DNA from: a virus
Virus record (IMG/VR): IMGVR_UViG_3300044846_000714
Coordinates: 1-46,651 of that record
Length of the DNA stretch: 46,651 nucleotides
Strand: one strand, 5' to 3'
The notes below the pieces were generated by a model. It was not told the DNA's origin, ran no database searches, and was given only the letters and a program-made list of their open reading frames with translations. Below, one piece after another: positions 10,233-46,651 of this stretch (within the stretch, counting starts at the first letter, position 1; each line of letters starts with the position of its first letter). The translations under genes were made by a program, and so were the position numbers.

Positions 10233-10250
10233 GGGGTAATTGCTTACCCC
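10221..10250 (-). terminator. Rho-independent terminator after the GIY-YIG gene
   Basis: The minus strand has a perfect 7-bp stem (GGGGTAA / TTACCCC) closed by a GCAA tetraloop and followed by TTGCTTTTTTTT. The stem includes the TAA stop codon of the GIY-YIG gene, and the T-tract overlaps the next promoter. Confidence 0.85.
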
Positions 10251-12331: not shown

Positions 12332-13276
12332 TTAATCTCCGTATATAGACTTGCCAGAATTCATTTTAGCAACCTTTCTACGTATGAGTGCTTCTGCAGA
12401 ACTTACTTTACTCTTAGCCTTTTTGAGTTTGCTCACATTATTCACAGCTTGAGTAACCTGAATAGGTTCTGGAGTCTTAAGAACTTCTTTAGTGTTAATA
12501 GGAGTCTTCTTCATGTTGTCTGCTGTAGCCATTACACTATTAACAGCTGGTCTTGCTTTATTCTCTGCCATAGACTTATCCCATTGCTCTGGAGTGTAGT
12601 TCCAAGTCTGTGAAGAAGAGGTACTAGTAGTCTTATTTGCTGGAGGATTAGTAACAGCTGCAGTTTTAGATTTAATGTAAGACTCATAAGCCTGTTGTGT
12701 CTTGGGACCCCAAGCACCATCAGCTGCAATGTCATAACCTTTACTACGAAGCATTTCTTGATATGCTCTTACTTTTTCAGAACCACCTCTAGCAAGAGGG
12801 CCTTTAGTACTAGGATTAGAAGAAGATACAGCAGTGTTAACTGCAGGACGAGCAGCATTCTCTGCTTGCGCAGTATCCCAAGTAGATTCGTTGTACCAGT
12901 TTGCAGGACTTTCAATAGGAGTAGGAGTAGTGAGATTTACAGAGTTAGTAGTTATTCCTTTAGGCTCAATAGCCATCACATCTTTTCTTGCTTCTTTAAC
13001 CTCTTTCTTAGATACTTTCATACCATCTTCTCCCTTACGCATTTTAGAAAGAGTCTTAGCCAAGTTAGCTCTCTTTACAGTAGTAGCAGAGTAAGCGCTT
13101 TTGTTGCTTAGTACTTTATTACGGAAAGCAGGTACAGACATTCCAGCCTTTTTAGCTTGTGCTGTGAAAGAACCTGGATTTTTAGAGACTGCTTTTTGGA
13201 TCCATTTACCTCCTGATTTCATTTTCTTACCTCCGCAACTCATGCAGGTAGAGTAAGAATTCTTTAGACGATTCAT
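12332..13276 (-). CDS. Basic virion protein with peptidoglycan-binding-like domain
   Basis: 314 residues. The N-terminus has a Cys pair (CMSCGGKKMKSGGKWIQKA) followed by PGSFTAQAKKAGMSVPAF and ATTVKRANLAKTLSKMRKG, a well-populated small phage-protein motif of unknown role. Residues about 165-202 (VRAYQEMLRSKGYDIAADGA, then WGPKTQQAYESYIKSK) match the three-helix PG_binding_1 fold, which binds peptidoglycan. The flanks are Thr/Ser/Pro-rich linkers containing two similar blocks, W(D)TAQAENAARPAVNT and WDKSMAENKARPAVNS, suggesting an internal duplication. A virion protein that contacts the cell wall during DNA entry fits these domains. Leader A/T-rich, no Shine-Dalgarno site. Confidence 0.7.
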   Translation of the reverse strand: MNRLKNSYSTCMSCGGKKMKSGGKWIQKAVSKNPGSFTAQAKKAGMSVPAFRNKVLSNKSAYSATTVKRANLAKTLSKMRKGEDGMKVSKKEVKEARKDVMAIEPKGITTNSVNLTTPTPIESPANWYNESTWDTAQAENAARPAVNTAVSSSNPSTKGPLARGGSEKVRAYQEMLRSKGYDIAADGAWGPKTQQAYESYIKSKTAAVTNPPANKTTSTSSSQTWNYTPEQWDKSMAENKARPAVNSVMATADNMKKTPINTKEVLKTPEPIQVTQAVNNVSKLKKAKSKVSSAEALIRRKVAKMNSGKSIYGD

Positions 13277-29804: not shown

Positions 29805-31334
29805 TTAGATACGGGGGAATTCTTTAATGATTACAGTCTTGGTAGGATCTTCCAAGAAGATACCAGCGAAGTCTTTCATCATATAGGTTGAATAAGGATC
29901 TTTGCTAGCAACAACAGTTTGTTGAGAACCGAATCCTACTGAACCAGGGATATACTGATAGTACATGTTAGGACGAGTAGCCAATTTCACTTCACGGATT
30001 CCAGCGTCATCTTGACCACTGATATCCAAAATGATGAAGATCGGAGGAGTCTTCTTGTTAGGACCCAACTCCAAGAAAGTAGCATGCTCATTCAATTGCT
30101 CCAATTCTACGAATTCAACTGGACCAGTTTCAGTAGTCATGAAGTGATCGAATTGGAAAGCATAACCTTGCTTCAAGCGATCTTTACCATCCATGAACTT
30201 ACCTGCGTCTACCATGAAGTTCTGACCGTTGAAGTCTTTACGAATAGCAGTAGAAGCCAATTCCATACCAGAACGGTTAGTGTAGATTTTAACGCTACGA
30301 TCTTTGATCAACACACGGTTGTAGAACAAGTCTCCAACAGCAGCACGAATCAAGTTCAAAGAGAACTGACCACGATCATAGTAGATAACGTTACCCAAGT
30401 GAAGTTGTTGCCACAAACCTTGCTTAGCACGAGTTGGACGACCTTTTTCATCTTTAGCGTTACCTTGACGACCCCACATCAAAGTGTTGGCCTTCATACG
30501 CATCATTTCCATACGCAACAAACGAGATACTGTAGGCTCCCAACCAACAATCTTGGTCTTTTCGCCCATAGCCATAGGATCAGTTACAGAGTAGTAAGTG
30601 ATGTCCAAAGGATTACCTGAAGCGTCAGTTTGCATACCCAATTTGGTTGCATCAGCCCAGTCAGTGATAGTGTGTTCAACACCATACTGTTGCAATACAT
30701 CAGCCATAACTTCCAAGTTACCATCGAACAATCCCAAGCTAGAGAATGAAGTGGTGTACTCACCCAAGATGTTACCAATCTTGAAGTACTCAGTACCTAC
30801 TTGCAAGAAACGTTGGTTAACGAAATCAGAGCTAGAAGCACCAATTGCACGAGCACGGTACTTAAATCCGTTCTGATACTTTTCACCTTCAGCTACAACT
30901 TGGATCTGAGTTTCTTGCTCATAACGATGTGCAGTGATAATGTCGTTTACAACGAATACGTTTTTGTCAAACACGATTTCGAACTCTTGACCATCAATAC
31001 CAGGTTTAGCAATTGCAGAAGCCAAGTTAACAATAACCTTAGGCAATTCAGCACGCTTCTTGATTTTGTAGGTGAAAACACCGTTAGGATCGTTAACCAT
31101 GAAAGGCTTACCGCTCTTCATAACTAGGTCGATCAAATCGTTAGAGTACAATTTAGTGTCAGTGAAAAGACGGATCATCATTTTGTCATACTGGTCAGGC
31201 TTAGTGCGCAACATAGTTTCAACAAAATTCTTGTCTGTCAATTTACCCAAACCATTCTTAGAATAGAATGAGCTGGTCATGTGGGCGTTAGCTATAACTC
31301 TCCCGTTAACCCTTGGAATACTTTGATTAGGCAT
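29805..31334 (-). CDS. Major capsid protein
   Basis: 509 residues. The assignment rests on position (portal, acidic scaffold-like protein, then this gene), on size and on an HK97-like sequence texture: an N-terminal helix region with FVETMLRTKPDQYDKMMIRL, a central GKMTKIVGWEPTVSRLLRMEMM stretch (about 255-275), then VGDLFYNRVLIKDRSVKIYT and TTETGPVEFVELEQLNEHAT. Codon usage is markedly biased to AAC, AAG, TTC and CGT compared with neighbouring genes, as expected for the most abundant virion protein. It starts 29 bases after the scaffold-like gene, behind an A-rich leader (repeated ACAAAAC), and is followed by a hairpin. The capsid role is inferred with high confidence; the exact family is crAss-like by context. 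Confidence 0.82.
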   Translation of the reverse strand: MPNQSIPRVNGRVIANAHMTSSFYSKNGLGKLTDKNFVETMLRTKPDQYDKMMIRLFTDTKLYSNDLIDLVMKSGKPFMVNDPNGVFTYKIKKRAELPKVIVNLASAIAKPGIDGQEFEIVFDKNVFVVNDIITAHRYEQETQIQVVAEGEKYQNGFKYRARAIGASSSDFVNQRFLQVGTEYFKIGNILGEYTTSFSSLGLFDGNLEVMADVLQQYGVEHTITDWADATKLGMQTDASGNPLDITYYSVTDPMAMGEKTKIVGWEPTVSRLLRMEMMRMKANTLMWGRQGNAKDEKGRPTRAKQGLWQQLHLGNVIYYDRGQFSLNLIRAAVGDLFYNRVLIKDRSVKIYTNRSGMELASTAIRKDFNGQNFMVDAGKFMDGKDRLKQGYAFQFDHFMTTETGPVEFVELEQLNEHATFLELGPNKKTPPIFIILDISGQDDAGIREVKLATRPNMYYQYIPGSVGFGSQQTVVASKDPYSTYMMKDFAGIFLEDPTKTVIIKEFPRI

Positions 31335-35136: not shown

Positions 35137-37146
35137 TTAATAACGGAAGGGAGAAGAGGATGTACGAAATAGTGAGTTTCCTTTTCTTTCCCTAAAGTAA
35201 GCTTGGATTCTATTGTCATCACTAGCGTTAGAGATTACAACTTGAGTAGTAAGACTCTTAGCCATAGCTAGAGTTAGTCCAAAAGATATAACTCGGTCAA
35301 CGTTTAATTTAGGTGTGAACTTGATTAACTCTTTAATTAAAATAGGATCTAGGATTCTAGTAACTCCTAAGCGTTCTTTTACAATAGTTCCTTCCTCATC
35401 TCTTTCTACGTCTACGACTTCTGTAATGTATTCGATGATAAGAGACATCAGATAGTTTTTAATGTCTTTGGTCATGTGAATACCATAGTCACGATTAACC
35501 GTAGAGTTAGGGTGGATATCGTTTAGGAACTTAGGTGTCTTCTCTAGAACTTTAGGAGACTCGTTCTTATCTACACAGTGCTGGATAAAACCGTAGTCCA
35601 TGTTTTCACAAAGACTCTTAGCATTGTAATACTTAAGAAGCATCTTAGTATTTTCATACCAAGTCTCAATCTTCTTAGGACGACCTGTATAACAAGCAAC
35701 AACCATATTCTGCCACCCTTCTCCTGATAGATTGTGAACCCTCTTATAAATGTAAGTAGATCCCAAAGAAGTTGAGTAGTGAGCTTGTGATTGTTTGTAT
35801 GGATCCGTTCCTGCTGTATAAAGTCCATAGGGGGCTTCTGAGATAGGATATTCCCAAATCTGTATACAACCCTCAATTGGATCAGATGGTTTAACAGGAA
35901 AGTTAGAAACAGGCTTTTTGTCTGTAAACTTATGTCGAATCTTTCCTTCAGCATTAGTGTAGAGTTCTACGTTGTCTGCTTGGATTTCTTGAGCGGTTAG
36001 TTTTTGTAGTTGTTCTTGAAGTAAGTCTACTGGGAAAATGTTCTGAGACAATTCTAAGAAACACTCTTCGTGGTTCAAAGGATAGTACATTACTTCTTTT
36101 AAGTAAGCCTCTAATCCATTTGATTTCTTAGTCTGTTCTCTAGATTTTAGAATAAGTTCTTTTCCTTTCTCTTCGTCTGCTACCCAGATTTTAATTAGAT
36201 CTAACTCAGAAGGTTCTTCCTTACCTAAGAAAAGTCCTAAGGGAGTTTCTTCCTTGGGTACTTTCAAAGAACGTGTGCCTGGGATAAAGAGTCCGTAAGA
36301 CTTTCCTGTCTCGTTAGATTCTACAGGAAGGAAATTATAGGCTTCAGGGTTATTGAATAATTCTTCTAGGTCAGCTGCCTTAGTCATATCTCCAGATGTT
36401 CCAATTACAAAAGGAGAACAACGCCATCCATAAGGACTATCGAAACATGGAGTAGTTGCCGCTAAGCAAGAAAGGATCTTTCCTTTTCCTCCTTCTTCTA
36501 AAAGAAACGAAGACAGAGTAAGACCTGCCGCTGCTTCTGTATTGTTACCTTCATCAAAGTTTCGTACGTGGAACTTAGACCACTCATTACGAGCGTTAGT
36601 TCTTTTATCTTTAAATCCTAAAGTTACCTGCCTCTTCCAGTCATCCTCAATACGAGGAAATCTAAAATAGTCAGGAAGGTTTCTAAGACCTAAGTCTACG
36701 TAGTCTGTGATTACTTTTAAGTCAGGTTGGTTAAGCGCAGATATCAAGTTATCAGAACCCTTCTGTGTGATGGCTTTGTGAGCCATGTAAGAAGAAGTAA
36801 GAACTGACTTAGAGATACGTCGAGATCCTACCATTACAACACCTTTCTTTCCGTCCTCGTGATTTTCAGCTTTGTGAATAGTTTCATCTACTGCTAAGTA
36901 GGTATCCCACAATTGAGGCTTATCTAGTTTACGAACTTGACGCTTACCTATCATAGTGTCTACATAAATAGACCAGTAGTTTAAGTGCCAGTAAATAAAA
37001 GGGGAGAAATAGAATCCATTGATAGTAACACCTTCAGTAATCTTTTTGTCCTCGTTTTCCCAAAATGCATCATACTCCTCTGAACCTATGTCAGGGAGGT
37101 TGTGTACATTGATTAGGAATTCAGGACTGTCTAGATTAGGATACAT
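35137..37146 (-). CDS. terL: Terminase large subunit
   Basis: 669 residues. ATPase domain: Walker A-like GSRRISKS at 107-114, Walker B-like LSSFLLEEGG at 211-220 (Glu pair in place of the usual Asp) and coupling motif VIGTSGD at 247-253. Nuclease domain (RNase H-like): AGTDPY with D448, LCENMDYG with E514, and NVDRVISFGL with D617 as the probable third acidic residue. The enzyme pumps DNA through the portal and cuts concatemers. It follows two small genes of the packaging cluster with a 1-base gap and precedes the portal by 25 bases. The deviating Walker motifs resemble those of other terminases of this phage type, so I do not read them as inactivation. Very high confidence. Confidence 0.95.
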   Translation of the reverse strand: MYPNLDSPEFLINVHNLPDIGSEEYDAFWENEDKKITEGVTINGFYFSPFIYWHLNYWSIYVDTMIGKRQVRKLDKPQLWDTYLAVDETIHKAENHEDGKKGVVMVGSRRISKSVLTSSYMAHKAITQKGSDNLISALNQPDLKVITDYVDLGLRNLPDYFRFPRIEDDWKRQVTLGFKDKRTNARNEWSKFHVRNFDEGNNTEAAAGLTLSSFLLEEGGKGKILSCLAATTPCFDSPYGWRCSPFVIGTSGDMTKAADLEELFNNPEAYNFLPVESNETGKSYGLFIPGTRSLKVPKEETPLGLFLGKEEPSELDLIKIWVADEEKGKELILKSREQTKKSNGLEAYLKEVMYYPLNHEECFLELSQNIFPVDLLQEQLQKLTAQEIQADNVELYTNAEGKIRHKFTDKKPVSNFPVKPSDPIEGCIQIWEYPISEAPYGLYTAGTDPYKQSQAHYSTSLGSTYIYKRVHNLSGEGWQNMVVACYTGRPKKIETWYENTKMLLKYYNAKSLCENMDYGFIQHCVDKNESPKVLEKTPKFLNDIHPNSTVNRDYGIHMTKDIKNYLMSLIIEYITEVVDVERDEEGTIVKERLGVTRILDPILIKELIKFTPKLNVDRVISFGLTLAMAKSLTTQVVISNASDDNRIQAYFRERKGNSLFRTSSSPFRY

Positions 37147-37800: not shown

Positions 37801-38156
37801 TTTAATTCTATTTTATGTAAAGGATGTTCTGCATTCCAAGTCTCTACTCCACAATTCGAAGATAGAGATGCTGTTTTGTAGGTACAGACGCAGCCACAAA
37901 ACGAACAGTGAAGTTCGTCTCTACTAGTCTCGTAGTGCTTGCCCGTGAGTTGTACATATTCGGGAGAAGTGATTGCGTTTGCTGAATTGTAGGGACAAGC
38001 GATACAAATGTCCATTCGCTCTGCGATAATGTTCTGTTTTTCATCACTCAGTAGTTTGAATTGGTTGGCTGTCTTCGTCGCTACTCCCTCCAATACTTTG
38101 TTCAAATTCTTTAGCCCCTTCAGGCTCAGGGCCATGTACTCTTTGTAAGGATTCAT
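37779..38156 (-). CDS. Zinc-ribbon protein
   Basis: 125 residues. A four-to-six Cys ribbon is clear: ERMDICIACPYN, then LHCSFCGCVCTYKTAS and NCGVETWN. This pattern is common in small phage proteins in which CxxC pairs hold zinc; the final W-N follows the last Cys as in relatives. The first 47 residues are helical and lie in a 113-base overlap with the end of the upstream HU-like gene; a start at the internal ATG at 38015 would remove the overlap but would cut the helix that leads into the ribbon. It probably binds nucleic acid or protein. Exact role unknown. Confidence 0.65.
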   Translation of the reverse strand: MNPYKEYMALSLKGLKNLNKVLEGVATKTANQFKLLSDEKQNIIAERMDICIACPYNSANAITSPEYVQLTGKHYETSRDELHCSFCGCVCTYKTASLSSNCGVETWNAEHPLHKIELKWKSTEK

Positions 38157-38598
38157 ATAATTTCTGGTGGTTTATTACTTGGGATTCATAGGTTCTGTCC
38201 ATGTAGGTTACTAGTACATCGTTGTACAATTTTTTGGACTTTGCTCTTTCGTATCTTGCTTTAAATAGTTCAAGCCAGTTCTCAAGCATGTAGTAGTTAG
38301 CATAACCTCTCATTGCTGTTAGGTCTTCTCTAGGTTCCAAAGTCAGAAGGTATTCAGACTTAAGTTTCTTAGAGATTAACTTCATAGCTCTTCTAGGACT
38401 AAATACTAAAACACCTAAGCCAGACAATCGTACTTTTACGGTAGGCAATTCTACTATGTCTTCAATGGTCTTTTTTAGATACCACTCATAGACAGTACTT
38501 ACCTTGTCGATAGTAAGATCCATTTCTTTAGCTACGTCTGAGTAGGCAGCAAAAGTCTTTATCTCGATGGTTTCGTATGTATCTTTTCTTGCTCTCAT
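38044..38598 (-). CDS. HU/IHF-like DNA-binding protein
   Basis: 184 residues. Residues about 15-50 form two helices (YSDVAKEMDLTIDKVSTVYE), then comes the beta arm entry VKVRLSGLGVLVFSPRRAMK (55-74), which parallels the 'LPGFGTF' turn of HU/IHF. A helical extension to about 150 and an acidic disordered tail (EFEQSIGGSSDEDSQPIQTT) follow. IHF-like subunits are a regular feature near the packaging genes of crAss-like phages; they bend DNA and may help packaging or regulation. It overlaps the preceding gene by 4 bases (ATGA) and the next by 113. The family call is moderate to good. Confidence 0.7.
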   Translation of the reverse strand: MRARKDTYETIEIKTFAAYSDVAKEMDLTIDKVSTVYEWYLKKTIEDIVELPTVKVRLSGLGVLVFSPRRAMKLISKKLKSEYLLTLEPREDLTAMRGYANYYMLENWLELFKARYERAKSKKLYNDVLVTYMDRTYESQVINHQKLYESLQRVHGPEPEGAKEFEQSIGGSSDEDSQPIQTTE

Positions 38599-38933
38599 GC
38601 AGGAACTGCTACTTCTAGTTTATTTGTAGAAAGAACTAAAGTGAGTGTGACACCTTGCTTGCTAGTAGGACACAGTCTTGGATTGACTGAGTTTTTTTCT
38701 AAGATGCCCATCTTTCTTAATTTAGTTATTCCGTTAGAGATAACTTGGATTGATGTGTCAAACTCACTTGCAATTCTTTCTTTTACTCCTTTGTCTAATG
38801 TGCCGTAAAATGAACTATGGGCTAAGATACTAGTGTATAGGTCTGATAACCTATACCCTGCAAGCCTAAGTAATACATCAATATAAGCTTGATGCAACTT
38901 GACTCCTTCCTCGTATTTACGTGCTACTTTCAT
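38595..38933 (-). CDS. Winged-helix DNA-binding protein
   Basis: 112 residues; first gene of the packaging operon. VKERIASEFDTSIQVISNG then ITKLRKMGILEKNSVNPRLC is a clear helix-turn-helix and wing of the kind found in small phage regulators and small-terminase-like proteins near terL. The N-terminal helix YEEGVKLHQAYIDVLLRLAG precedes it. The start follows CCAAACCA, the CA-rich leader, 24 bases below a full promoter. It probably binds DNA as a regulator of the packaging/structural genes or as a packaging recognition protein. Confidence 0.7.
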   Translation of the reverse strand: MKVARKYEEGVKLHQAYIDVLLRLAGYRLSDLYTSILAHSSFYGTLDKGVKERIASEFDTSIQVISNGITKLRKMGILEKNSVNPRLCPTSKQGVTLTLVLSTNKLEVAVPA

Positions 38934-38957
38934 TGGTTTGGTTTATTTTTGGATAAA

Positions 38958-38987
38958 CAAATATACGATTGTAACAAAAAAAGTCAA
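38958..38987 (-). promoter_or_regulatory. Bacteroidota-type promoter of the packaging operon
   Basis: Minus strand: TTG at 38987-38985, 19-base spacer with a T-run, TATATTTG at 38965-38958. Strong match; it drives genes from the winged-helix protein to the portal, about 6.3 kb, up to the terminator at 32611. Confidence 0.8.
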
Positions 38988-39118
38988 GTCTAATGTTAAG
39001 TCTAGAGGGCTTTCTAATATCAAATGTTAGCCATGTTAATCTAATTTCTAACTTAGATAATTATTTTATGTTCGGATTGGATTTAGACGAACACTATAGA
39101 CAAAACTAGATTTAAGAG

Positions 39119-39126
39119 TATATTTG
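39119..39126 (+). promoter_or_regulatory. Possible -7 element of the plus-strand gene
   Basis: TATATTTG lies 18 bases before the plus-strand ATG. No TTG is found at the expected -33 position, so this would be a weak or activator-dependent promoter. It is divergent to the promoter at 38958-38987; the 130 bases between them could hold operators. Confidence 0.45.
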
Positions 39127-39144
39127 TATTAAACAGATACTGCT

Positions 39145-39417
39145 ATGTCAATGGAAAAAGTTAAAAAACCGACCTCGGAAGAAGTGTTTGAGTTCTTCCT
39201 TTTAGCCTTGCAGGATGAAGAGGTCAAGATAGCAGGAGATATAGGAGGATTTAAAGATGCTTTGTACCAAGGCTTCAAAGACTTTACCTATAGAAAGAAG
39301 TACACAGAAGAGATGTTGTTTGATTACATCGACTATGCTCTAGAGTCTATTCTAGGAGATGATCAACCTATGCAACAAACAGATTACATGCATGCTCAGA
39401 ATGTAGCTGGACTTTAA
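39145..39417 (+). CDS. Small acidic protein, the only plus-strand gene
   Basis: 90 residues, acidic and helical: KPTSEEVFEFFLLALQDEEV, then FKDALYQGFKDFTYRKKYTE, LFDYIDYALESILGDD. No known motif. Support comes from its -7-like promoter element, an ATG at the head of a coherent frame, amino-acid composition typical of a folded helical protein, and the absence of any minus-strand gene here. Being transcribed against all neighbours and next to the start of the packaging operon, it could be a regulator or an early gene. The A-rich bases before the ATG (ACAGATACTGCT) are ordinary. Function unknown. Confidence 0.6.
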   Translation: MSMEKVKKPTSEEVFEFFLLALQDEEVKIAGDIGGFKDALYQGFKDFTYRKKYTEEMLFDYIDYALESILGDDQPMQQTDYMHAQNVAGL

Positions 39418-39783
39418 GTTAAGCAAGAATTCTTTCACAAATTTTCAACATGCATGTCTACTTACCAGTAAGTCACTTTATATTTGTTACCCCGACACCA
39501 TTTCTTAATGTTCGCAGACGAGGATTAAAAAGTAATCTGCTAGAAGTTGGATTGTGAGAGTAGCCCTCAGAGGTGAAATTGGTTTTCTCCGATAGTGTCA
39601 AAATGTTCTAACGAAGTTTGCAGTGCTCTGACCTACAAGTAATAGACCGTAGGCAATAAGTGGACAGAACAGAGACTTAGCTCAGAGGGATTCTCCGAGA
39701 GCTATTTGGTTAAAAACTGCTGCAATATAAGTTAGAATAGAAAGTCAAAATAGACTACTTCTCAGAATGAGAAGGAACAAAAA
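39418..39783. other. 366-base gene-free region with repeats and inverted repeats; possible non-coding RNA
   Basis: No frame of useful length exists on either strand. A TATATTTG at 39479-39486 on the plus strand could start a transcript. Downstream the region is less AT-rich than usual intergenic DNA and contains several inverted repeats: GATTA/TAATC near 39523-39538, CCTAC/GTAGG at about 39633-39655, AGCTC...GAGCT with an inner GAG/CTC at 39679-39702, and CTTCTCA/TGAGAAG near 39758-39774. The pair CTCAGAGG...TTCTCCGA occurs twice (39566-39592 and 39681-39698). The last hairpin may end the minus-strand surface operon. A structured RNA or a DNA site such as a packaging or replication signal would both fit. 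Confidence 0.45.
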
Positions 39784-40230
39784 CTATTTCAAATTTTCAA
39801 ATCCATTCTTAAAAGACTTCTCTAATGCCTTAGAATAAGCTTTTCTGTTATGAGGAATTCCTTCTACAGAAACAAACATAGCATTAACATAGACAGTCTT
39901 TTTAGCCTCTCCAAGAACAATTACTCCATTTAGATTTATCTCAGTAACTACAATATAGTCTCTCTTGAGAAATTGTAACCCTACGATATTTAAGAGTTCT
40001 TCAGGCATAGCAATGGATTTGATTGTTCCTGAAATAGGACTGCCCTCATTACATAGTTGGTACTTTGAAGAAGCGATTTCTTCTAGAGTTGTTTGTGCTC
40101 CAAAGATTATAGGTCTTCCTCCTATCTCTGTTACAGAAGCAATTGATGTTACAGTGTCAACTTTATAGCATTGAGCACTCAGAGAAGTCATCATAGTGAC
40201 TAGAAACGAAAGTATAAATAGTTTTTTCAT
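39784..40230 (-). CDS. Secreted small protein of unknown function
   Basis: 148 residues. A clear signal peptide (MKKLFILSFLVTMMTSLSAQ) with cleavage before Gln21. The mature part has a central beta region (MPEELLNIVGLQFLKRDYIV, VTEINLNGVIVLGEAKKTVY) and a helical end (NRKAYSKALEKSFKNGFENL). No known enzyme motif. It is the last gene of the surface cassette, 2 bases after the lectin gene, and its leader peptide is typical of Bacteroidota exported proteins ('SAQ' cleavage). A periplasmic or surface partner of the CsgG-like lipoprotein is a guess from co-occurrence only. Confidence 0.65.
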   Translation of the reverse strand: MKKLFILSFLVTMMTSLSAQCYKVDTVTSIASVTEIGGRPIIFGAQTTLEEIASSKYQLCNEGSPISGTIKSIAMPEELLNIVGLQFLKRDYIVVTEINLNGVIVLGEAKKTVYVNAMFVSVEGIPHNRKAYSKALEKSFKNGFENLK

Positions 40231-40232
40231 GA

Positions 40233-41216
40233 TTAATAAGTTACTGCTCCAGCATAGCCAGGAGCTATCAAATATAGATTTAAAGTTCCTCCTGTAGTTA
40301 GAGTAGTTGTAGTGTAAGTAGAAACTCCAGGATAAGTTACACGTGTGTTCACTTTAGAGGACACTATAGCATTGTATTGAGCTGTAGTAAAGATTCTTAC
40401 GTCAGGTGCTATTCTCCACCTAGAAAACCTACCAGCTTTCCTTGCAGCTACATAATACTTGTCTGCTATGTTTATTCTTCCATCATCGTTTAGATCAAAT
40501 CTGTGATAGGAAAGTCCGTTGATTGTAGTTTTTCCTAAGATGATGTTAGAGACTGCTTGGATGTCTGTGTTAGTGTAAGCCTGAACTCTAGTAGGTGCTA
40601 CTATCTCAATGTAGTATTCCTTAGAAGGATCATAAGTTTCAGAAATAGAATAGTAACCCGAAGAGTTAGTATAGATAGTTTTGTAGAGTGCCCAAGAAGA
40701 AGTTGTAACTACATAGTTAAATTCTAGCACGTAAGGTAATGAAACATTGTTGGGTAAGTCATTCCACCTACCATTAGATACAAACTGTACATAGTCTTCG
40801 TTACCTGCGTTATTAGGTTCTCCAGAGTTCCAGTTTTTATAAGAGTAAGTTTCTCCTGTCACCCATCTCCAAGTACCCTCAGTCACTTCATCTGTTAATC
40901 CTATCCATCCAGAAGGCCAAATATTAAATATAAAACTTTGTTCTGCTGCAGTAGTAATAGTTACTAAATAACCACCCATAGCTGCGCAATTAGATCTAGC
41001 AGTAGTCCATGTAGCAGTTCCTGTAGAACGATAGTAAGAGTGTCCGTTATAGTTTTGTTGATTGGTAAAACCTGATATAGTGGAGTTTGTTCTTCTATAA
41101 AGCCTTACAGCCACATTAGAGGCACCAGAACCATTTGCGTTATACAAGTACCCAGAATAAGTAAATTGTGCACTCAGTGCGTTCACAAAGAAGAATAGAA
41201 CAATAACCCACCTCAT
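40233..41216 (-). CDS. Secreted C-type lectin-like protein with dockerin-like module
   Basis: 327 residues. Signal peptide 1-16 (ending NALSA). A CTLD spans about 57-168: GHSYYRS, WTTARSNCAAMGGYLVTI, WIGLTDEVTEGTWRWVTG, then EPN at 133-135, NEDYVQF, and WND at 151-153. EPN plus WND are the calcium and mannose-type sugar ligands of C-type lectins. The CTLD seems inserted in a beta sandwich (GSGASNVAVRLYRRTN before, ALYKTIYTNSSGYYSISETY after). Residues about 208-327 contain a dockerin-like EF-hand DLNDDGRINIAD (241-252) and a tail shared with the type IX substrate upstream. No type IX tail of its own. Probably a surface or periplasmic sugar-binding protein. Its ATG overlaps the preceding stop (ATGA). 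Confidence 0.85.
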   Translation of the reverse strand: MRWVIVLFFFVNALSAQFTYSGYLYNANGSGASNVAVRLYRRTNSTISGFTNQQNYNGHSYYRSTGTATWTTARSNCAAMGGYLVTITTAAEQSFIFNIWPSGWIGLTDEVTEGTWRWVTGETYSYKNWNSGEPNNAGNEDYVQFVSNGRWNDLPNNVSLPYVLEFNYVVTTSSWALYKTIYTNSSGYYSISETYDPSKEYYIEIVAPTRVQAYTNTDIQAVSNIILGKTTINGLSYHRFDLNDDGRINIADKYYVAARKAGRFSRWRIAPDVRIFTTAQYNAIVSSKVNTRVTYPGVSTYTTTTLTTGGTLNLYLIAPGYAGAVTY

Positions 41217-42700
41217 ATCAATAGCTTTGCTCCCATTAAAAGTTGAAAGTTTAATATGTCTTGTCCTGCTACGTAAGTTCCTCCTCCAGTGATGCCTAAG
41301 CCAAAAGTCTTGGTCATCTTGTAGGTAAAATTAAAGAAAGGAATCACAATAGGCTTAGCTTCGAATATAGATTCTGTGTAATACTTAGAGTACGGAGAAT
41401 AGATACCAGCCATAATAACTGTAGCGTCTATGTGTTTGGTAAGTTTACCTTTGTACATAAATCCTCCTATGGCAATGGTTGAAATCATTTCTTCCCCGAA
41501 TAACTTACCATAGGTTCCTGCTGCTCCGTAGAGTGCTGTGAAGTTTTTAACTGAATTAACTCTTACAAATAGAAGAGTGTTTGACATTGACTTAGGCATT
41601 ACGCTAAGTCCATCAGATATAACACTTATGTGTTTGTTTCCTTTTTTGTTTGCTCCTATCCAGGAGCGTACGCAAGAGATATTTCCTATCCTAGCGTTAA
41701 CCATGTAGTCAGCTGAAAACCCAAGAGAAGAAGTACCATCTCCTTTCACTCTAGTAAAGGAGGCAGTACCTCTTGCATCTTGTGCTCCATCAGACTTAGT
41801 CTGAATACCAACTAAATCACCAGTTACTAAGATCGCAGGTTTAGCAACTTCGGCTTTAGCTTTATTTGCTGCTTTCGCAGTACTAGAAGACTGAGTCTTT
41901 TGTTGCTCAGTTTTAGTTTCTTCTACTTTTTGTTCTGAGGGTTTCTCGGTTTGTACTTCCGTTTTTTCTTCGGTTTTACCACCGCTTCCTCCACCACCTT
42001 CGGAGCTTCCACTACTACTTCCACTACTTCCACTACCACTGGAGTTTCCTCCACTACTACTGGAGCTGGAGCTGGAGCCACTGCTTCCTCCATTACCATC
42101 TCCGCTGCCTTCTCCACTGGAACTTCCGTTGGAGTTGGAGTTGGATGAAGACCCACTTTGATTTTCTGATGAGTTTCCTCCATCATTTGATTTTCCATTT
42201 TCTCCTGACGATTGGCCAGAAGAATTAGAACCACTAGAGCTACTGCTAGTACGATTCCGAGAGCTAGTTCGATTGTCATTGTTATTGTTGGTTTTTGTTG
42301 TTCCTATGTTTGTGCCTGAAGAGGTGCTAGATCCAACATCTATGTTAACACTACCTACATTTGAAATAGCCCCTAGGTTCATAACATTGCTTACAATGTT
42401 TAGGGTGGTATTTGTTGTGGTAGTTGTTGTAGTTGTTACTCCAACTCCTTGACAGGGTGATGTACTTTGATACTTCAAATATACACTATTTATCCAATTA
42501 TCAAAAGTTCCATCCTGTAACTCTGTATAGGAGAAAGTCTTAACTTGTCCGTAGTAAGCGATTACTATAGGACTAGACATGTCTGCGTTAATAAACTTTA
42601 ACTCCTGTGTACACGGGTCCTTAAATGAGTAAATAAAGCTCTGCCCCCGAAGAGACAGAGCTATCATAAATAGAATTAGTATTTTAGTTTTTAAATACAC
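41213..42700 (-). CDS. Predicted outer-membrane beta-barrel protein with Ser/Gly linker
   Basis: 495 residues. A signal peptide (ILILFMIALSLRGQ) is followed by a small N-terminal domain (21-86), a Thr/Asn-rich stretch, a Ser/Gly/Asn-rich low-complexity linker (about 141-245), a charged Lys/Glu/Gln segment (245-290) and a C-terminal domain from about 295 made of alternating strands (TSSLGFSADYMVNARIGNIS, NTLLFVRVNSVKNFTALYGA, HIDATVIMAGIYSPY, FGLGITGGGTYVAGQ) that ends LLMGAKLLI, like an outer-membrane barrel. The gene lies between the CsgG-like lipoprotein and the lectin, overlapping the former by 17 bases. The linker coincides with a nested frame (41923-42279). The barrel call is from strand pattern, not a named family. 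Confidence 0.65.
   Translation of the reverse strand: MYLKTKILILFMIALSLRGQSFIYSFKDPCTQELKFINADMSSPIVIAYYGQVKTFSYTELQDGTFDNWINSVYLKYQSTSPCQGVGVTTTTTTTTNTTLNIVSNVMNLGAISNVGSVNIDVGSSTSSGTNIGTTKTNNNNDNRTSSRNRTSSSSSGSNSSGQSSGENGKSNDGGNSSENQSGSSSNSNSNGSSSGEGSGDGNGGSSGSSSSSSSSGGNSSGSGSSGSSSGSSEGGGGSGGKTEEKTEVQTEKPSEQKVEETKTEQQKTQSSSTAKAANKAKAEVAKPAILVTGDLVGIQTKSDGAQDARGTASFTRVKGDGTSSLGFSADYMVNARIGNISCVRSWIGANKKGNKHISVISDGLSVMPKSMSNTLLFVRVNSVKNFTALYGAAGTYGKLFGEEMISTIAIGGFMYKGKLTKHIDATVIMAGIYSPYSKYYTESIFEAKPIVIPFFNFTYKMTKTFGLGITGGGTYVAGQDILNFQLLMGAKLLI
41923..42279 (-). CDS. Nested ORF: single-pass membrane protein with Pro/Val/Glu stalk
   Basis: A 118-codon frame on the same strand as the 495-residue gene, in another frame and wholly inside it. 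It reads MTIELALGIVLAVALVVLIL then LANRQEKMENQMMEETHQK, a Pro/Thr stretch (HPTPTPTEVPVEK), a Val/Glu/Pro-rich stalk and a basic end KPKKKRKYKPRNPQNKK. A 20-residue membrane segment next to charged helix, stalk and basic tail is what a membrane-anchored phage protein such as a spanin or regulator of lysis looks like. The codons in this frame often end in G, unlike the surrounding genes, so the outer frame could be the real one. The leader is A-rich (AACCAACAATAACA). Reported as a probable but unproven overprinted gene. Confidence 0.45.
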   Translation of the reverse strand: MTIELALGIVLAVALVVLILLANRQEKMENQMMEETHQKIKVGLHPTPTPTEVPVEKAAEMVMEEAVAPAPAPVVVEETPVVVEVVEVVVEAPKVVEEAVVKPKKKRKYKPRNPQNKK

Positions 42701-43391
42701 CTGACTTAATGAGATTTTGAATCACATTAGTACAAGCGGTCTCCAAAGATTTACGAGTAGCTTTACCTACTGTGCTTTGAGAGAACTTCATATCATCTAA
42801 AGATTTTAAGAATGATTCACCAGTTTTAGTCGACTCTCCTTCGCCAGATCCAATATAGATCTGACCTGTCTTAGCATCCACAAAACGGACCTGTAAACGT
42901 ATGAAGGTAGTGACAACAACTTTTGACTTAAGGCCATCAACTTGCTCGTCTTCATCAACAGCAAAATCAGCCACAGTAACATACACAAAGTAATGAGCAG
43001 GCTTAATCTTACCTTTACCATCAATAGGCTCATCGAATACGCCTTTCTTTGATGCTTTGAATTGAGTGACCATTCTTTCTTTGATCTCTGATTTTTCTTC
43101 CGTAAATATAAATCTGTTTGTTTCATCCAAATAATCCAAAACAGATTCTGCAAAGCCAAGACCTACATTCTTTTCCTGAAGAGCAGGATAAAGAGCAAGT
43201 ACCTTGGTCATATCTACGCTTACCACTTGTACTGTTTTTTTAATAGAATCACTATAATTAGATACAGTGGAGATGTCTTTCACCTCCACTTTATCTTCTT
43301 CGGTAGTAGTCTTCATAGAACCACAACCTGCCAAGGTCAAGACTACAAGAGCCATGAACTTGTTAAACCACTTACCAGGGATCTTCCTCAT
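42684..43391 (-). CDS. CsgG-like outer-membrane lipoprotein
   Basis: 235 residues. Lipoprotein signal with lipobox LAGC (Cys23). The mature domain follows the CsgG/curli-secretion pattern: ALQEKNVGLGFAESVLDYLD, then a short strand with RFIFTEEKSEIKERM, VYVTVADFAVDED, VVVTTFIRLQVRFVDAKTGQ, IGSGEGESTK, and FSQSTVGKATRKSLETACTN, which matches 'G.A.R.AL..A' of the family. CsgG forms an oligomeric pore in the outer membrane for export. Length is a little shorter than canonical CsgG. It lies between a small membrane protein (20-base overlap) and the predicted outer-membrane protein. The family is recognised by pattern. Whether it forms a pore is unknown. Confidence 0.7.
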   Translation of the reverse strand: MRKIPGKWFNKFMALVVLTLAGCGSMKTTTEEDKVEVKDISTVSNYSDSIKKTVQVVSVDMTKVLALYPALQEKNVGLGFAESVLDYLDETNRFIFTEEKSEIKERMVTQFKASKKGVFDEPIDGKGKIKPAHYFVYVTVADFAVDEDEQVDGLKSKVVVTTFIRLQVRFVDAKTGQIYIGSGEGESTKTGESFLKSLDDMKFSQSTVGKATRKSLETACTNVIQNLIKSGVFKN

Positions 43392-43698
43392 CAGCTTGTG
43401 GTTTAGTTGCAGGAGCAGCAGGTTGAGCTGCAGGTTTCTCTACTGTTCTCTCTTTGATGATAGTAGTAGTTCCACCGCTAGATTGCTTCTGTTGGTTAGT
43501 GTTGTTGTTCTCTAGATTCAAGTTAATCACAGGTGCAGCAGCAGGTGCTTGCTCTGTTTTAGCTTCTTCTTTAGATTCTTCGCCTCCACCTAAGTGGGTA
43601 GCGAACCATGCACCTCCTGCAGTTACAGCAGTGGTGATTGCGCCAATGATAGCTTTCTTAGTAGCTGACATTACGCCTTCTTCTTGTTCTTCTGACAT
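43372..43698 (-). CDS. Small single-pass membrane protein
   Basis: 108 residues. A membrane helix at about 13-36 (KKAIIGAITTAVTAGGAWFA) is followed by an acidic, Pro/Ala-rich extracellular or periplasmic part with INLNLENNNTNQQ and a C-terminus QADEEDPW. It begins 12 bases after the holin-like gene and overlaps the CsgG-like gene by 20 bases. Similar layouts are found in inner-membrane spanins or antiholins, and the position next to the holin supports a lysis role, but no sequence family is recognised. Confidence 0.6.
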   Translation of the reverse strand: MSEEQEEGVMSATKKAIIGAITTAVTAGGAWFATHLGGGEESKEEAKTEQAPAAAPVINLNLENNNTNQQKQSSGGTTTIIKERTVEKPAAQPAAPATKPQADEEDPW

Positions 43699-43709
43699 GA
43701 TATTATGGA

Positions 43710-44078
43710 TTAGTTTTCTTCTTTTTTACTATACTTAGCTGCCAAAACTTCTGGGGTATCATCCTCTTCGTCTACTTTAGAAATTAGCATTTTGTCTCGG
43801 TCTTCAGAGTTGAACCAGTAGTCTACTACTTTGTTCAAGTTACCTACGAATGCACCCAAAAGGATAAGCAACATTTCTTTCCAGTCTTCACCAATAGCAG
43901 CTCCCATGAATACTGCTGCATTGATTCCAACGATAATTAAAGTAAACAAGCCTAATACGATAGCGGTAATCTTCCAACGATTAGCTTGCATTTGTTGTAG
44001 CATGTAATAGAACCTATTCTTAGGATCTACTGTTACTGGTTCTGCTTGGCTAAAACCAAGTGCTTTTTTTATGTTCAT
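43710..44078 (-). CDS. Holin-like membrane protein
   Basis: 122 residues. Two hydrophobic helices: about 35-62 (ITAIVLGLFTLIIVGINAAV) and about 67-81 (EMLLILLGAFVGNLNKVVDY), then YWFNSEDRDKML and an acidic tail. The 'LLGAFVGN..K..DYWFN' pattern recurs in holin-like proteins of marine phages. It lies in the lysis region with the endolysin a few genes upstream and overlaps the previous gene by 4 bases (ATGA). The tail is cytoplasmic if the N-terminus is cytoplasmic. The holin role (timed membrane lesions) is probable. Confidence 0.7.
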   Translation of the reverse strand: MNIKKALGFSQAEPVTVDPKNRFYYMLQQMQANRWKITAIVLGLFTLIIVGINAAVFMGAAIGEDWKEMLLILLGAFVGNLNKVVDYWFNSEDRDKMLISKVDEEDDTPEVLAAKYSKKEEN

Positions 44079-45973
44079 TTATTTACGATTATTTTAGAGT
44101 GTAAGATTTCTTTTTGAGTTGTTACAGAAAGCACATAGAAGCCATTAGGGAGACGATCTAGGTTTGTATTATACTTGTACTTACCTGCAGGCATTCTCTC
44201 GCTTAGAATCGTTTGTACACGTCTTCCAATCTCATCAGAGATAGCTACATCTACTTCGCTATCTTCTTTGATCTTAAATTGGATCTGGATAGGTCCATCT
44301 GTAGGGTTAGGAAAACTAATAATAGAATTCAACTCATCTAGAGAGATAACTCCTTTGTTGATTCTACGTACTTCAATTACTCCCATAGCAGGGGTGATGT
44401 TCATGTCTTTAGAGTTTTTGTCTCCTACGTATTTAGCACCTGTCCACAAAGCTGCAGTAGCCCAAGAGTCTTGAGGTTTTTTAGCAATAAACTGAAGAGT
44501 AAATACTTGCTCTCCGTCATTAAGCATGTTCTCGTTAGTCAAGTCAGCAGCTCCCCAAGAAATAGTTCCGTTAGAAGGATTCAAGTAAGAAGTCCACTTC
44601 ATCATCTTCTCAGTGTTTTCTACTTTCTTAAACTCTAAGTAAGCAGTATCATAACGCAAGTCTAATTGTAATGCACCTAAGTTCTTACCGTTAGTCAAAA
44701 CTTTAACTGGTACGTTAACCAAGTTACCTTCGTCTACGGTTACTTTAGGCATGTTGATTTCGATAGTTTCTGCAGGAAAATCGTATTCTACAGTCTCGTC
44801 AATGATGTAACGCTTAGCATTAGCTGGGTTAATAATCTTGATAGGAGTCAAACGAGCCATCTTAAATCCTGTAGAGTTAGCATCACCTTTAACAGCTACG
44901 TAGTAAGTAATAGAGTCTCTACCGTCAATTGTGTAGTTAAAGTTATTAATAGTAGAGTAAGTAGAAGTTAAGTTAGTAGCAGATCCGTTAATTGAATTGT
45001 ACTCAGCAACTGTGAAGAACATTACATCTTTCTTAGAGTTAGGCCAAGAAGTAAACCTACCTGCCAAACGTCCGTATACAGAGTAAACGTCTGCAATAGA
45101 AATAGTTCCATCAGTTCCGTTAACGTCCATAGTGTAGTAGTCAAAACCTGAAGCAACGTATTGACCTAGAATAGATTGATTAATCTTCTGTGCATCTGCA
45201 GTAGAGAATACGTTACCAGGGATCATAGTATCTCCCTTAACAACCATTCTTACATCCCAATAGGTAGTATCCAAGAATTTCTTAAATACAACAACACCAG
45301 TAGAGTTAGTTGCTTTAGCTTCTACTTGAGTCCAAGATCCTGAAGGAGCTTTCTTTTCCAAAGACACCCACAAGTTCTTAGCGTCAGAACCTGTTACGTT
45401 TTTAAACTTAGCAGCAAATCTCAAAACTTTCTGATTGAAGCGACCACCATAAGAGTAAACTACCAATGTAGTATCGTTACCCCAGCTAGTAGCGGCTTTG
45501 TTTGCGAATGATTTAACACCAGATACCTTAAGAGTCTTAATAGAATCCAATGTGTTCCACACAGCAGCTCCTGCGTGCGTGAAAGTAAGATCAAATGTAG
45601 CTCCGTTAGAATAGTTAAAAGTAGAACTAGATCCTGTGTAAGCCAATGTAACAGTCAAGAAACCCTGAGAGTTACTGTCTACGTACTGTAGGTATTGGTC
45701 AGAAGAAGAGATTTTTAAAGTAGGCACAACTCCTGTGAAAGCTGTGTTATCATAAAATACACGGAATTGCATACCTGTAATCTTTTCAGAAGTAGAGGTA
45801 TTGTAGAAGTGAAGAGGAGCTACAGTCTGTCCAACAGTGTGTGTAGCTACTTGATAACCTGAGTCGATTACAACCCAGTGACCTATACCTGGAGAGGTAG
45901 CAGAAGATTGTGCTGATACACTGCCAACCAACAATGTCAACACTCCGATGATTACTTTAAATAGTTTATTCAT
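44075..45973 (-). CDS. Secreted cohesin/dockerin-like protein with type IX secretion tail
   Basis: 632 residues. Signal peptide 1-21 (VSA cleavage). Two cohesin-like beta domains: about 45-175 (MQFRVFYDNTAFTGVV, FDLTFTHAG) and about 405-535 (MPKVTVDEGNLVNVPVKVLT, GALQLDLRYDTAYLEFKK, EQVFTLQFIAKK). Between them, near 250-380, is a dockerin-like module with MDVNGTDGTISIADVYSVYG (282-301), homologous to the lectin's. Residues about 553-632 are a textbook type IX sorting domain: SFPNPTDGPIQIQF, DEIGRRVQTIL, AGKYKYNTNL, LPNGFYVLSV and HSKIIVNK. This directs a protein through the outer membrane to the Bacteroidota cell surface. It lies between a secreted HExxH protein and the holin, overlapping both by 4 bases. 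Surface display is strongly indicated; the biological purpose is unknown. Confidence 0.88.
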   Translation of the reverse strand: MNKLFKVIIGVLTLLVGSVSAQSSATSPGIGHWVVIDSGYQVATHTVGQTVAPLHFYNTSTSEKITGMQFRVFYDNTAFTGVVPTLKISSSDQYLQYVDSNSQGFLTVTLAYTGSSSTFNYSNGATFDLTFTHAGAAVWNTLDSIKTLKVSGVKSFANKAATSWGNDTTLVVYSYGGRFNQKVLRFAAKFKNVTGSDAKNLWVSLEKKAPSGSWTQVEAKATNSTGVVVFKKFLDTTYWDVRMVVKGDTMIPGNVFSTADAQKINQSILGQYVASGFDYYTMDVNGTDGTISIADVYSVYGRLAGRFTSWPNSKKDVMFFTVAEYNSINGSATNLTSTYSTINNFNYTIDGRDSITYYVAVKGDANSTGFKMARLTPIKIINPANAKRYIIDETVEYDFPAETIEINMPKVTVDEGNLVNVPVKVLTNGKNLGALQLDLRYDTAYLEFKKVENTEKMMKWTSYLNPSNGTISWGAADLTNENMLNDGEQVFTLQFIAKKPQDSWATAALWTGAKYVGDKNSKDMNITPAMGVIEVRRINKGVISLDELNSIISFPNPTDGPIQIQFKIKEDSEVDVAISDEIGRRVQTILSERMPAGKYKYNTNLDRLPNGFYVLSVTTQKEILHSKIIVNK

Positions 45974-46440
45974 TTTGTTTTAGTTTTATTTAGTTTGTGT
46001 AATTGTTCAATTGCATTTGCCTGTAACCAAGGCTCTGGGGTTGGTAGTTTTTTTATAAAGTCTAGCTCGTAGATATAACACTTAAGTTCTTCTTCCTCCT
46101 GTGAGTGTTCTACTGGATGTAACAAGTAGTATAAGTGAAGACTTTCGTGTACAATAACACAAGCTAGGTTACTGATTGAGTTCATTTTTATGTCTCCTGT
46201 AGCGATGAAAATAGTTCCACCATCTTGGGAGATTGTATTAGAGGAATAGGGGCTAATCCAGAAGTCTATTACTTGGCAGACATCTATTACTCTAGTGTAA
46301 GCGTTGACATCTGTTTCAGCAATTAATGCTAAGGCTGAGTCTACCTTTAAATCCCAACCATCCCCTGCCTTCATCACATTAATTTGAGAAGAACAGGGGA
46401 TAGAAAGAATTAGAAAAAGACTTACTAGAAGTCCTTTCAT
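45970..46440 (-). CDS. Secreted HExxH metallopeptidase-like protein
   Basis: 156 residues. The signal peptide MKGLLVSLFLILSIPCSS is followed by a small mature protein with VIVHESLHLYYLLHPVEHSQ: HESLH at 98-102 is a zinc HExxH motif, and the Glu cluster at 115-118 or E125 in CYIYELDF could supply the third ligand, as in small gluzincin-type folds. It starts directly after the endolysin stop and overlaps the next gene by 4 bases. Export plus a protease motif among lysis genes suggests action on periplasmic or surface proteins. A non-enzymatic zinc protein is possible because the downstream ligand is not certain. Confidence 0.65.
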   Translation of the reverse strand: MKGLLVSLFLILSIPCSSQINVMKAGDGWDLKVDSALALIAETDVNAYTRVIDVCQVIDFWISPYSSNTISQDGGTIFIATGDIKMNSISNLACVIVHESLHLYYLLHPVEHSQEEEELKCYIYELDFIKKLPTPEPWLQANAIEQLHKLNKTKTK

Positions 46441-46650
46441 TTACTTGATATCTTTAGATTCAATAAGAGTATAAGTGAAAGAGTTACCACCCAATGCCGC
46501 AGCCTTCTTACAGATAACCATGAATGCATCAAAGTCAGCAGACTTCTTAAACACTTGGCAACCTTCGCTCCAGTTTTCAACGTAGGTAGAGTCTGCACCA
46601 GCTTTATGAATATTAATACCGAAGATGCCTTCTTGTATCTTGGACTCGTC
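46441..46650 (-). CDS. L,D-transpeptidase (YkuD)-like endolysin, C-terminal fragment
   Basis: The last 69 codons of a gene that enters from the right edge. INIHKAG followed by YVENWSEGCQVF reproduces the YkuD catalytic arrangement of His, then SxGC with the nucleophilic Cys. The same pattern is used by phage peptidoglycan hydrolases of marine Bacteroidota and other phages, which cleave rather than form cross-links. The C-terminus is NSFTYTLIESKDIK. Its stop is immediately followed by the ATG of the next gene. The endolysin role is inferred from motif plus holin-like and other lysis genes downstream. Confidence 0.75.
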   Translation of the reverse strand, partial: DESKIQEGIFGINIHKAGADSTYVENWSEGCQVFKKSADFDAFMVICKKAAALGGNSFTYTLIESKDIK

Positions 46651-46651
46651 A

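Follow-up and report, generated by a model that had tools for sequence, protein, structure and literature searches.

A phage-encoded cohesin scaffold with a type IX sorting domain, encoded together with dockerin-like proteins that carry exchangeable heads

Introduction

The complete virus record IMGVR_UViG_3300044846_000714 of IMG/VR, a stretch of 46,651 bases that was analysed whole and is called the window here, encodes a 632-residue protein (positions 44075 to 45973) whose C-terminus resembles the sorting domain of cargo of the type IX secretion system (T9SS). This system is reported in the phylum Bacteroidota (PMC5837995), and its type A C-terminal sorting domain (CTD) is described as a seven-strand immunoglobulin (Ig)-like sandwich at the extreme C-terminus of the cargo (PMC11285876, PMC12618676). 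The question raised by the locus is what use a phage might make of such a protein. The original prediction, made from the letters of the DNA alone, had given the open reading frame (ORF) this position, which was borne out with the strand being minus, and had described its product as a type IX substrate with two cohesin-like domains, encoded in a lysis operon and holding partners at the surface. We propose, with a probability of roughly 0.6, that the product is a T9SS-exported cohesin scaffold that would hold swappable adhesins on the infected cell; its export, its binding and its benefit to the phage are what we infer from the evidence below. The scaffold and the other cassette genes, the 156-residue upstream neighbour and the terminase, major head and GIY-YIG genes of the window lie on the minus strand.

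The type IX sorting domain of the scaffold

Searches with curated T9SS models revealed that the scaffold matches TIGR04183 with 34.5 bits (cut-off 23, E 1.5e-8; residues 554-631 against positions 2-72 of the 72-position profile) and PF18962 with 38.2 bits (cut-off 27). The CTD (residues 548-632; 44078 to 44332) contains FPNP at 554-557, G583 within DEIGRR, LPNGFYVLSV at 608-617 and the final SKIIVNK, all as originally predicted. TIGR04183 matched at E<=0.01 in 41 of 41 aligned scaffold relatives, and at E<=0.001 there was exactly one match per record in all 36 virus records searched whole (26 + 10); the match of the scaffold is therefore not due to chance, and the lectin proteins encoded beside it are without a recognisable tag. 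A tblastn search of the phage collection with the CTD alone returned nothing at E<=1, phage immuto (see below) included, which for a diverse domain of 85 residues does not imply absence.

Alignment A6 showed that P555, P557, G583, G597, G611, Y613 and K627 are invariant in 36 of 36 CTD rows, a dereplicated set of 28 of the 151 fused or long partial scaffolds and 8 of the 23 split CTD proteins (nine had been chosen and the L002 row was left out). Conservation of a glycine in a loop and of a lysine in the last strand is reported for type A CTDs (PMC11285876); when equated through the predicted strands, G583 and K627 would correspond to the published beta3-beta4 loop glycine and beta7 lysine.

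An AlphaFold2 model based on alignment A1 (41 close relatives) had a mean pLDDT of 46.9 and was not used. The alignment was extended to 69 rows with distant fused scaffolds, split halves and lectin-protein tails, three L002 rows being left out, and the resulting model had a mean pLDDT of 81.7. Seven strands were predicted between residues 552 and 630, and the CTD strands had block pLDDT values of 87-96 from residue 551 on. Residues 546-632 matched the PorU CTD with Z 10.2 and 25% identity (rmsd 2.3 over 84). Chain D of a T9SS complex that contains the substrate NucA was matched by residues 550-631, also at 25% identity (Z 9.4); by title and length this chain is taken to be the NucA CTD. With these fold matches and with scores above the cut-offs of the curated models, the domain stands apart from a generic beta sandwich. 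The scaffold thus has the CTD score, the C-terminal sandwich, the loop glycine and lysine and, by pattern only, the signal peptide of type A cargo, and its assignment as phage-encoded T9SS type A cargo is supported by family, fold and conservation, from which its export would follow.

Modular architecture of the scaffold

PF00963 (Cohesin) matched the scaffold with 57 bits (cut-off 24.1) in two stretches, in agreement with the two cohesin-like domains of the original prediction, and both the score above the family cut-off and the cohesin fold were found. The order of the parts is cohesin 1, X-like module, dockerin-like module, cohesin 2 and CTD, behind a Sec-type signal peptide recognised by its pattern (residues 1-21; 45911 to 45973) for which cleavage is expected before Q22. 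Cohesin 1 (about residues 23-180; 45434 to 45907) was assigned from the second PF00963 stretch, an N-terminal match in relatives and a beta sandwich in the model. It is followed by an X-like Ig module (about residues 181-250; 45224 to 45433), which is partly common to the dockerin-like protein described below, and by a dockerin-like module (about residues 251-330; 44984 to 45223) with calcium-loop positions D283, N285 and D295, the loop lying between helices at 258-268 and 293-303 in the model. Cohesin 2 (about residues 399-536; 44366 to 44779) matches solved cohesins with Z up to 14.1 (6kgf_C). Residues 28-372 as a whole matched chain 4fl4_I of a Clostridium thermocellum scaffoldin (Z 12.6, rmsd 10 A), which we take to be a cohesin-X-dockerin unit.

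The scaffold gene overlaps both neighbours by 4 bases (45970-45973 and 44075-44078), as predicted. One phage contig carries an interrupted scaffold gene (L063:1057-2724, same contig as L128), owing to a sequencing error or to decay. A second, weak cohesin match was seen outside the cassette in G006 (E 5.8e-4) and G018 (E 9.3e-4), in a 512-residue ORF.

The dockerin-like protein and its exchangeable heads

Downstream of the scaffold lies the gene of a 327-residue dockerin-like protein (40233 to 41216), a core member of the cassette in which an exchangeable middle part, here a C-type lectin domain (residues 68-163; 40728 to 41015; PF00059 65.7 bits, cut-off 22.6), is followed by Ig-like and dockerin-like modules with a dockerin-type calcium loop region at residues 216-252 (40461 to 40571). 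The tail of this lectin protein and the X-dockerin-like region of the scaffold are homologous (32% over 135 residues, E 9e-16). This neighbouring gene lends support to the suggested role of the scaffold in holding partners at the surface. The calcium-loop residues (D-x-N-...-D) were kept in 27 of 27 dockerin-like tails, a dereplicated choice from 150 dockerin-like proteins, and in 27 of 28 fused scaffold rows of A6; PF00404 has no listed match for the scaffold. No lectin domain was found in the 10 other window proteins scanned, which are part of the window ORFs, so that a receptor common to the tail and the lectin protein gained no support.

About 160 C-terminal residues are homologous across all dockerin-like proteins and the part that precedes them is not. 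At E<=0.01 the heads of 29 aligned members comprised C-type lectin (12), PA14 (5) and GEVED (2), and a LamG head occurs in longer dockerin-like proteins. Among 65 distinct scaffold-plus-head combinations, drawn from loci in which the fused scaffold is complete and a single complete dockerin-like gene is present, four head types were represented 28, 19, 10 and 8 times. Scaffolds at least 95% identical had the same head type in 84% of 43 pairs, and those 85-95% identical in 32% of 177 pairs, as compared with 30% (sd 4%) for shuffled labels; below 95%, head type is random relative to scaffold identity. Loci L077 and L041 carry a lectin and an unnamed head, respectively, despite scaffolds 98.4% identical, and the window and L047 have lectins 98% identical and scaffolds 76% identical. 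Chimeras are possible among metagenome contigs but would hardly occur at the rate of head exchange observed. An immuto-like phage (L162:2549-4825, same contig as L178) encodes two adjacent dockerin-like proteins with different middles.

Composition of the cassette

Six genes form the core of the cassette, those of the scaffold, a 108-residue protein, a CsgG-like protein, a barrel-like protein, the dockerin-like protein and a 148-residue protein, and this core was complete in 41 of 41 testable loci. Counted as testable were T9-seeded loci whose scaffold was complete and of distinct sequence and which had 7 kb or more of downstream sequence, loci short at that end, incomplete or repeated being left out. 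The gene order, including a 122-residue membrane protein, was identical in 36 of these 41 loci and differs in the distant forms L172-L174 and L179-L181. In L012, L016, L023, L026 and L048 the 108-residue gene lies 1.6-2.2 kb downstream of the 122-residue gene, with extra DNA within the cassette.

The 122-residue membrane protein (43710 to 44078), a usual but not universal member, has hydrophobic stretches and matched no family above cut-off, so that its description as holin-like was not upheld by any holin family. It is followed by the core 108-residue small membrane protein (43372 to 43698) and by the 235-residue CsgG-like lipoprotein (42684 to 43391). The next core protein, of 495 residues (41213 to 42700), is secreted and consists of an N-terminal domain, a Ser/Gly/Asn-rich linker and a C-terminal part whose sequence, on our reading, suggests an outer-membrane barrel; neither it nor nine relatives matched a relevant Pfam family. 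Beyond the dockerin-like gene lies the core gene of the 148-residue small secreted protein (39784 to 40230), whose family showed no relation to CsgG in profile comparison. Neither the scaffold nor the barrel-like protein has a PHROG match at E<=0.1, and no Rfam match at gathering score was found within 38000-46651.

Upstream of the scaffold, the gene of a 156-residue secreted protein with a VHESLHLYYLLH motif (45970 to 46440) is a frequent neighbour, for which scans of the family libraries gave no family above cut-off and the immuto locus no relative. The cut gene that precedes it matches PHROG 3000, of unknown function; a full-length sister of this gene had no Pfam match, and one crAssphage homologue is annotated as 'peptidoglycan-binding domain 1 protein'. 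Genes of this type in L170-L176 are 82-84% identical over the 69 residues held by the window, the nearby scaffolds being 30-43% identical, and genes resembling them (47-50%) are present in Bacteroides phages and in crAss-like phages. The endolysin that the original prediction placed in the operon was not found among these neighbours. The endolysin-like gene of the window lies at 12332-13276, about 31 kb away, and the families of the neighbours do not bear out a lysis operon.

The CsgG-like protein of the window itself had no PF03783 match, which was obtained for 2 of 16 relatives (best E 1.9e-4), and its LpoB score of 19 bits is well under the cut-off of 110.55. Comparison of profiles related the family to CsgG with E 1.5e-5 and a probability of 79% (control family 0.25). 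When the CsgG-like profile was run against all frames of 14 bacterial loci, the eight best frames were bacterial CsgG frames, with low scores of 5.7-13.4 bits, and in the remaining six loci, including L182 and L187, which are among the strongest PF03783 matches, it gave about 0 to 2.5 bits or no score. Because these matches are below threshold or low-scoring, the protein is named CsgG-like. Searches of solved structures with CsgG-like profiles gave no credible match (none at E<=1; best E 0.83 in another search). A loop whose counterpart in CsgG forms a membrane hairpin looks shortened in the profile alignment of the CsgG-like protein, so that a pore is not assured. No Pfam match to CsgF or CsgA/B was seen among the cassette proteins scanned, and remote homology is possible.

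Distribution and phage backbones

Scaffold relatives are encoded in 94 IMG/VR stretches, of which 80 were kept. Among 50,697 phage records, only four matched the scaffold, all of them phage immuto (29% identity), whose host is Flavobacterium sp. LMO8 and which also matches the CsgG-like (41%), lectin (about 50%) and barrel-like (31%) proteins. The scaffold of immuto consists of two adjacent genes, for a cohesin-X-dockerin-like protein and a cohesin-CTD protein, and this split pair is kept in 20 IMG/VR loci (L150-L169, L150 being immuto). That the two halves are fused in one lineage and separate in the other suggests that they work together. The GenBank annotations of immuto name lectin C-type, hypothetical and cohesin domain proteins and leave the T9SS unmentioned. 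Distant fused scaffolds (L170-L176 and L179-L181) are 30-47% identical.

The window contains terminase, portal and major head genes. Its large terminase subunit (TerL) is about 30% identical to those of Cellulophaga phi4:1 and the uncultured gut phages cr50_1 and cr55_1, and CrAss_Ring_1 matched with 36.8 bits (cut-off 27); judged by terminase and ring protein, the backbone is crAss-like. The isolate nearest in terminase (38.6%) and major head protein (27%) (29805-31334 and 35137-37146) is Leptolyngbya phage Lbo-JY46, for which a cyanobacterial host is stated; this crAss-like phage from a cyanobacterial culture may in reality infect a Bacteroidota companion. None of four cassette genes searched had a match in Lbo-JY46. 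The window also carries a GIY-YIG endonuclease gene (10244-10963; PF01541 43.1 bits).

Comparison of the window terminase with 32 records gave 20 matches at 77-94%, three at 29% (G003, G004 and G016) and nine records without a match. Some of these nine may be fragments, but the genome of immuto carries an annotation as complete, and G014 and G019 measure 166 kb and 176 kb. The Pfam TerL_nuclease model found no terminase in immuto or G014, so that their backbones were judged solely by the missing match to the window terminase. The three records with 29% identical terminases have scaffolds 83-89% identical to that of the window, while nine records with 79-81% identical terminases have scaffolds only 75-79% identical, and this discordance indicates that the cassette has been exchanged between phage lineages. 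The cassette lies near the terminase gene in the window and near nuclease, reductase and tRNA genes in immuto.

Signal peptides and selection

Bacteroidetes proteins are reported to show a glutamine after the signal peptide cut, the Q-rule (PMC5837995), and phages of Porphyromonas gingivalis were noted earlier to follow it (PMC10367356). Distinct N-termini were scored for a stretch of hydrophobic residues with a small residue and then glutamine behind it, no dedicated signal-peptide predictor being used. The pattern was present in 64 of 68 fused scaffolds, in 14/14 and 14/14 of the split pair, and in 67/83 dockerin-like, 82/87 barrel-like and 40/55 156-residue proteins, and in two membrane-protein controls it was present in 0/56 and 6/83. 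The CsgG-like set showed it in 16/83 and a lipobox-like pattern in 46/83. Q22 was invariant in 41 of 41 aligned scaffolds, in line with the signal peptide of the original prediction, and the pattern as a whole supports a probable Bacteroidota host.

Pairwise dN/dS was determined for 52 scaffolds at least 74% identical to that of the window, saturated pairs and pairs with very low dS being dropped. The value was 0.13 overall, 0.06 for cohesin 1, 0.085 for the dockerin-like module, 0.11 for cohesin 2 and 0.22 for the CTD; the scaffold is under purifying selection.

Discussion

We envisage that the Sec system of the host would export the scaffold, with the signal peptide cut before Q22, as the strong sequence pattern suggests. 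The type IX machine of the host would then recognise the type A CTD, identified by family and fold, and carry the scaffold outside the outer membrane, where it would be attached or released. In Flavobacterium johnsoniae, type A CTDs are reported to use a shared PorV shuttle that copes with overproduced cargo (PMC12618676), and thus the phage scaffold would need no shuttle of its own. A scaffold cohesin would bind the dockerin-like module of the lectin protein, the product of a separate gene. Because the lectin protein carries a signal peptide of its own and no T9SS CTD, it would have to pass the outer membrane either by riding on the scaffold or with help from the CsgG-like and barrel-like proteins. 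Its exchangeable head (C-type lectin, PA14, LamG, GEVED or unnamed) would bind a target, probably glycans, so that infected cells or debris might stick to neighbours or particles, or receptors might be masked against competing phages; a further benefit may be that progeny are kept clear of debris. Adhesion or capture is ranked slightly before masking because the named heads are binding modules.

Several observations weigh against this proposal. As regards the cohesin-dockerin pairing, the PF00404 match in the lectin protein, 17.1 bits, is under the cut-off of 22.9, a dockerin family match at E<=0.01 was found in only 7 of 29 dockerin-like members, only one calcium loop is seen in the module, and the split scaffold form has N for the first D of that loop (NN-D) in 6 of 6 cases. 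The scaffolds of L137 and L133 are 98.1% identical and their dockerin tails only 35% alike, so that recognition would be loose, resting on few residues, or nonexistent. As to export, complement C3 domains also match the CTD fold (Z 9.4, 12% identity); the fold alone is hence generic, and specificity comes from the sequence models and conserved residues. The CTD is also the fastest-evolving folded part (dN/dS 0.22 versus 0.06-0.13), which could reflect adaptation to differing hosts or weaker constraint. The CTDs of one species are not always compatible with another (PMC11285876), type A cargo is in some cases released and not anchored (PMC12618676), and a named host, Flavobacterium, is available for immuto only and not for the window phage. 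The Q-rule pattern was found in only 27 of 69 of the 148-residue proteins, and the 148-residue protein of the window faintly matches a virion structural PHROG (E 0.085).

This last match would fit an arrangement in which the scaffold and lectin protein form head or tail fibres that help the free phage to attach, their folds merely resembling surface proteins. Virions often bear lectin and Ig-like domains, and the cassette of the window lies near the terminase gene. Most of the scaffold, dockerin-like and barrel-like proteins, however, have a signal peptide with glutamine at +1, which like the T9SS CTD is unexpected for proteins assembled in the cytoplasm, and the different gene neighbourhood in immuto, the very different backbones that carry the cassette and the lack of PHROG matches for the scaffold and barrel-like protein make virion decoration quite unlikely. 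A module that opens the outer membrane for lysis through a CsgG-like pore, spanin-like and secreted proteins, with the scaffold as an accessory, is marginally easier to accept, yet still unlikely. It would account for the CsgG-like protein, for the weak Rz-spanin match of the 108-residue protein (E 0.049) and for the peptidoglycan-binding annotation of one upstream-neighbour homologue, and a lysis role has been proposed for the phage CsgG of Melnitz (PMC9004378). It would leave a T9SS-tagged cohesin scaffold and exchangeable lectins unexplained, the CsgG-like loop looks shortened, and the cassette proteins and upstream neighbour include no endolysin or holin family above cut-off.

It is very unlikely that the CTD is a non-working leftover of a captured host gene on a protein that stays periplasmic. 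Its dN/dS, although the highest of the folded parts, is far below 1, its seven invariant residues persist in rows whose identity to the window protein is as low as 25-28%, and the domain is present in 41/41 relatives and 36/36 records and kept in both fused and split forms. An origin of the locus from host chromosome misassembled onto a phage contig was rejected as having next to no probability. The one indication in its favour comes from a single scan of genome contigs with two peptide patterns, which gave one full-length relative (L083), binned in a bacterial metagenome-assembled genome (MAG), and one CTD-only match (L084), and no cassette amid host genes on a bacterial chromosome. Since the MAG of L083, from Sphingomonadaceae, contains no other T9SS CTD, this contig most probably comes from a phage and was binned wrongly. 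Phage genes flank the locus in the window, which has its own terminase, portal and major head genes, and in many contigs, the cassette is complete in 41/41 loci, and its genes stand together in the complete isolate genome of immuto.

Display of adhesins by an exported scaffold, the reading we prefer, may be compared with known systems. Cryophage is reported to carry three variable genes with T9SS tags, which were described as a unique occurrence and for whose products superinfection exclusion was suggested (PMC7468147). As here, these are phage genes with T9SS type A domains that vary between variants, one of them with PA14; the passages of that report dealing with them describe single cargo genes (endoglucanase, GH39, PA14) and no cohesin-dockerin scaffold or multi-gene cassette, and there the tag is on the variable genes, whereas here it is on the constant scaffold. 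The original statement that no standard description is known thus holds only in part, phage T9SS cargo being in print. No phage cohesin-dockerin scaffold or display cassette was found among the literature matches listed (subscription papers and preprints lay outside the search). The curli modules (type VIII secretion system, T8SS) of pelagiphages and methylophages are alike in having a phage CsgG and a multi-gene module common to phage families (PMC7029224, PMC9599517, PMC9004378), with proposed roles in sibling capture (PMC7029224, PMC9599517), superinfection defence and lysis control (PMC9004378 among the sources). They differ in that the relevant parts of these reports describe no T9SS tag, cohesin or lectin, and no CsgF or CsgA/B match was seen here. 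RemA of F. johnsoniae is likewise a surface adhesin with a type A CTD and a lectin domain, partly anchored and partly released, but it is a host gliding gene product with lectin and CTD on one chain (PMC12618676). Cellulosome scaffoldins share cohesin, X module and dockerin with the phage scaffold, and cohesin 2 resembles cellulosomal cohesins; the present system differs in being phage-encoded, in having a T9SS CTD for a Gram-positive anchor, lectins for enzymes and a single imperfect dockerin-like repeat.

We suggest tentatively, at somewhat less than even odds, that the cassette represents a categorically new strategy, a mobile and modular cohesin-dockerin display in which a constant T9SS-exported scaffold would be the socket for plug-in heads, exchanged independently of scaffold and particle genes, by which phages would reset what an infected cell adheres to or conceals. 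If so, its naturally exchanged cohesin-dockerin parts would be a source for study, and the proposal would be open to immediate test in the Flavobacterium phage immuto, which is in culture. Many metagenomic phage contigs would then carry a second, different surface-remodelling module beside phage curli, and phages would re-dress infected cells via the Bacteroidota-specific type IX route with a cellulosome-like scaffold-and-plug design.

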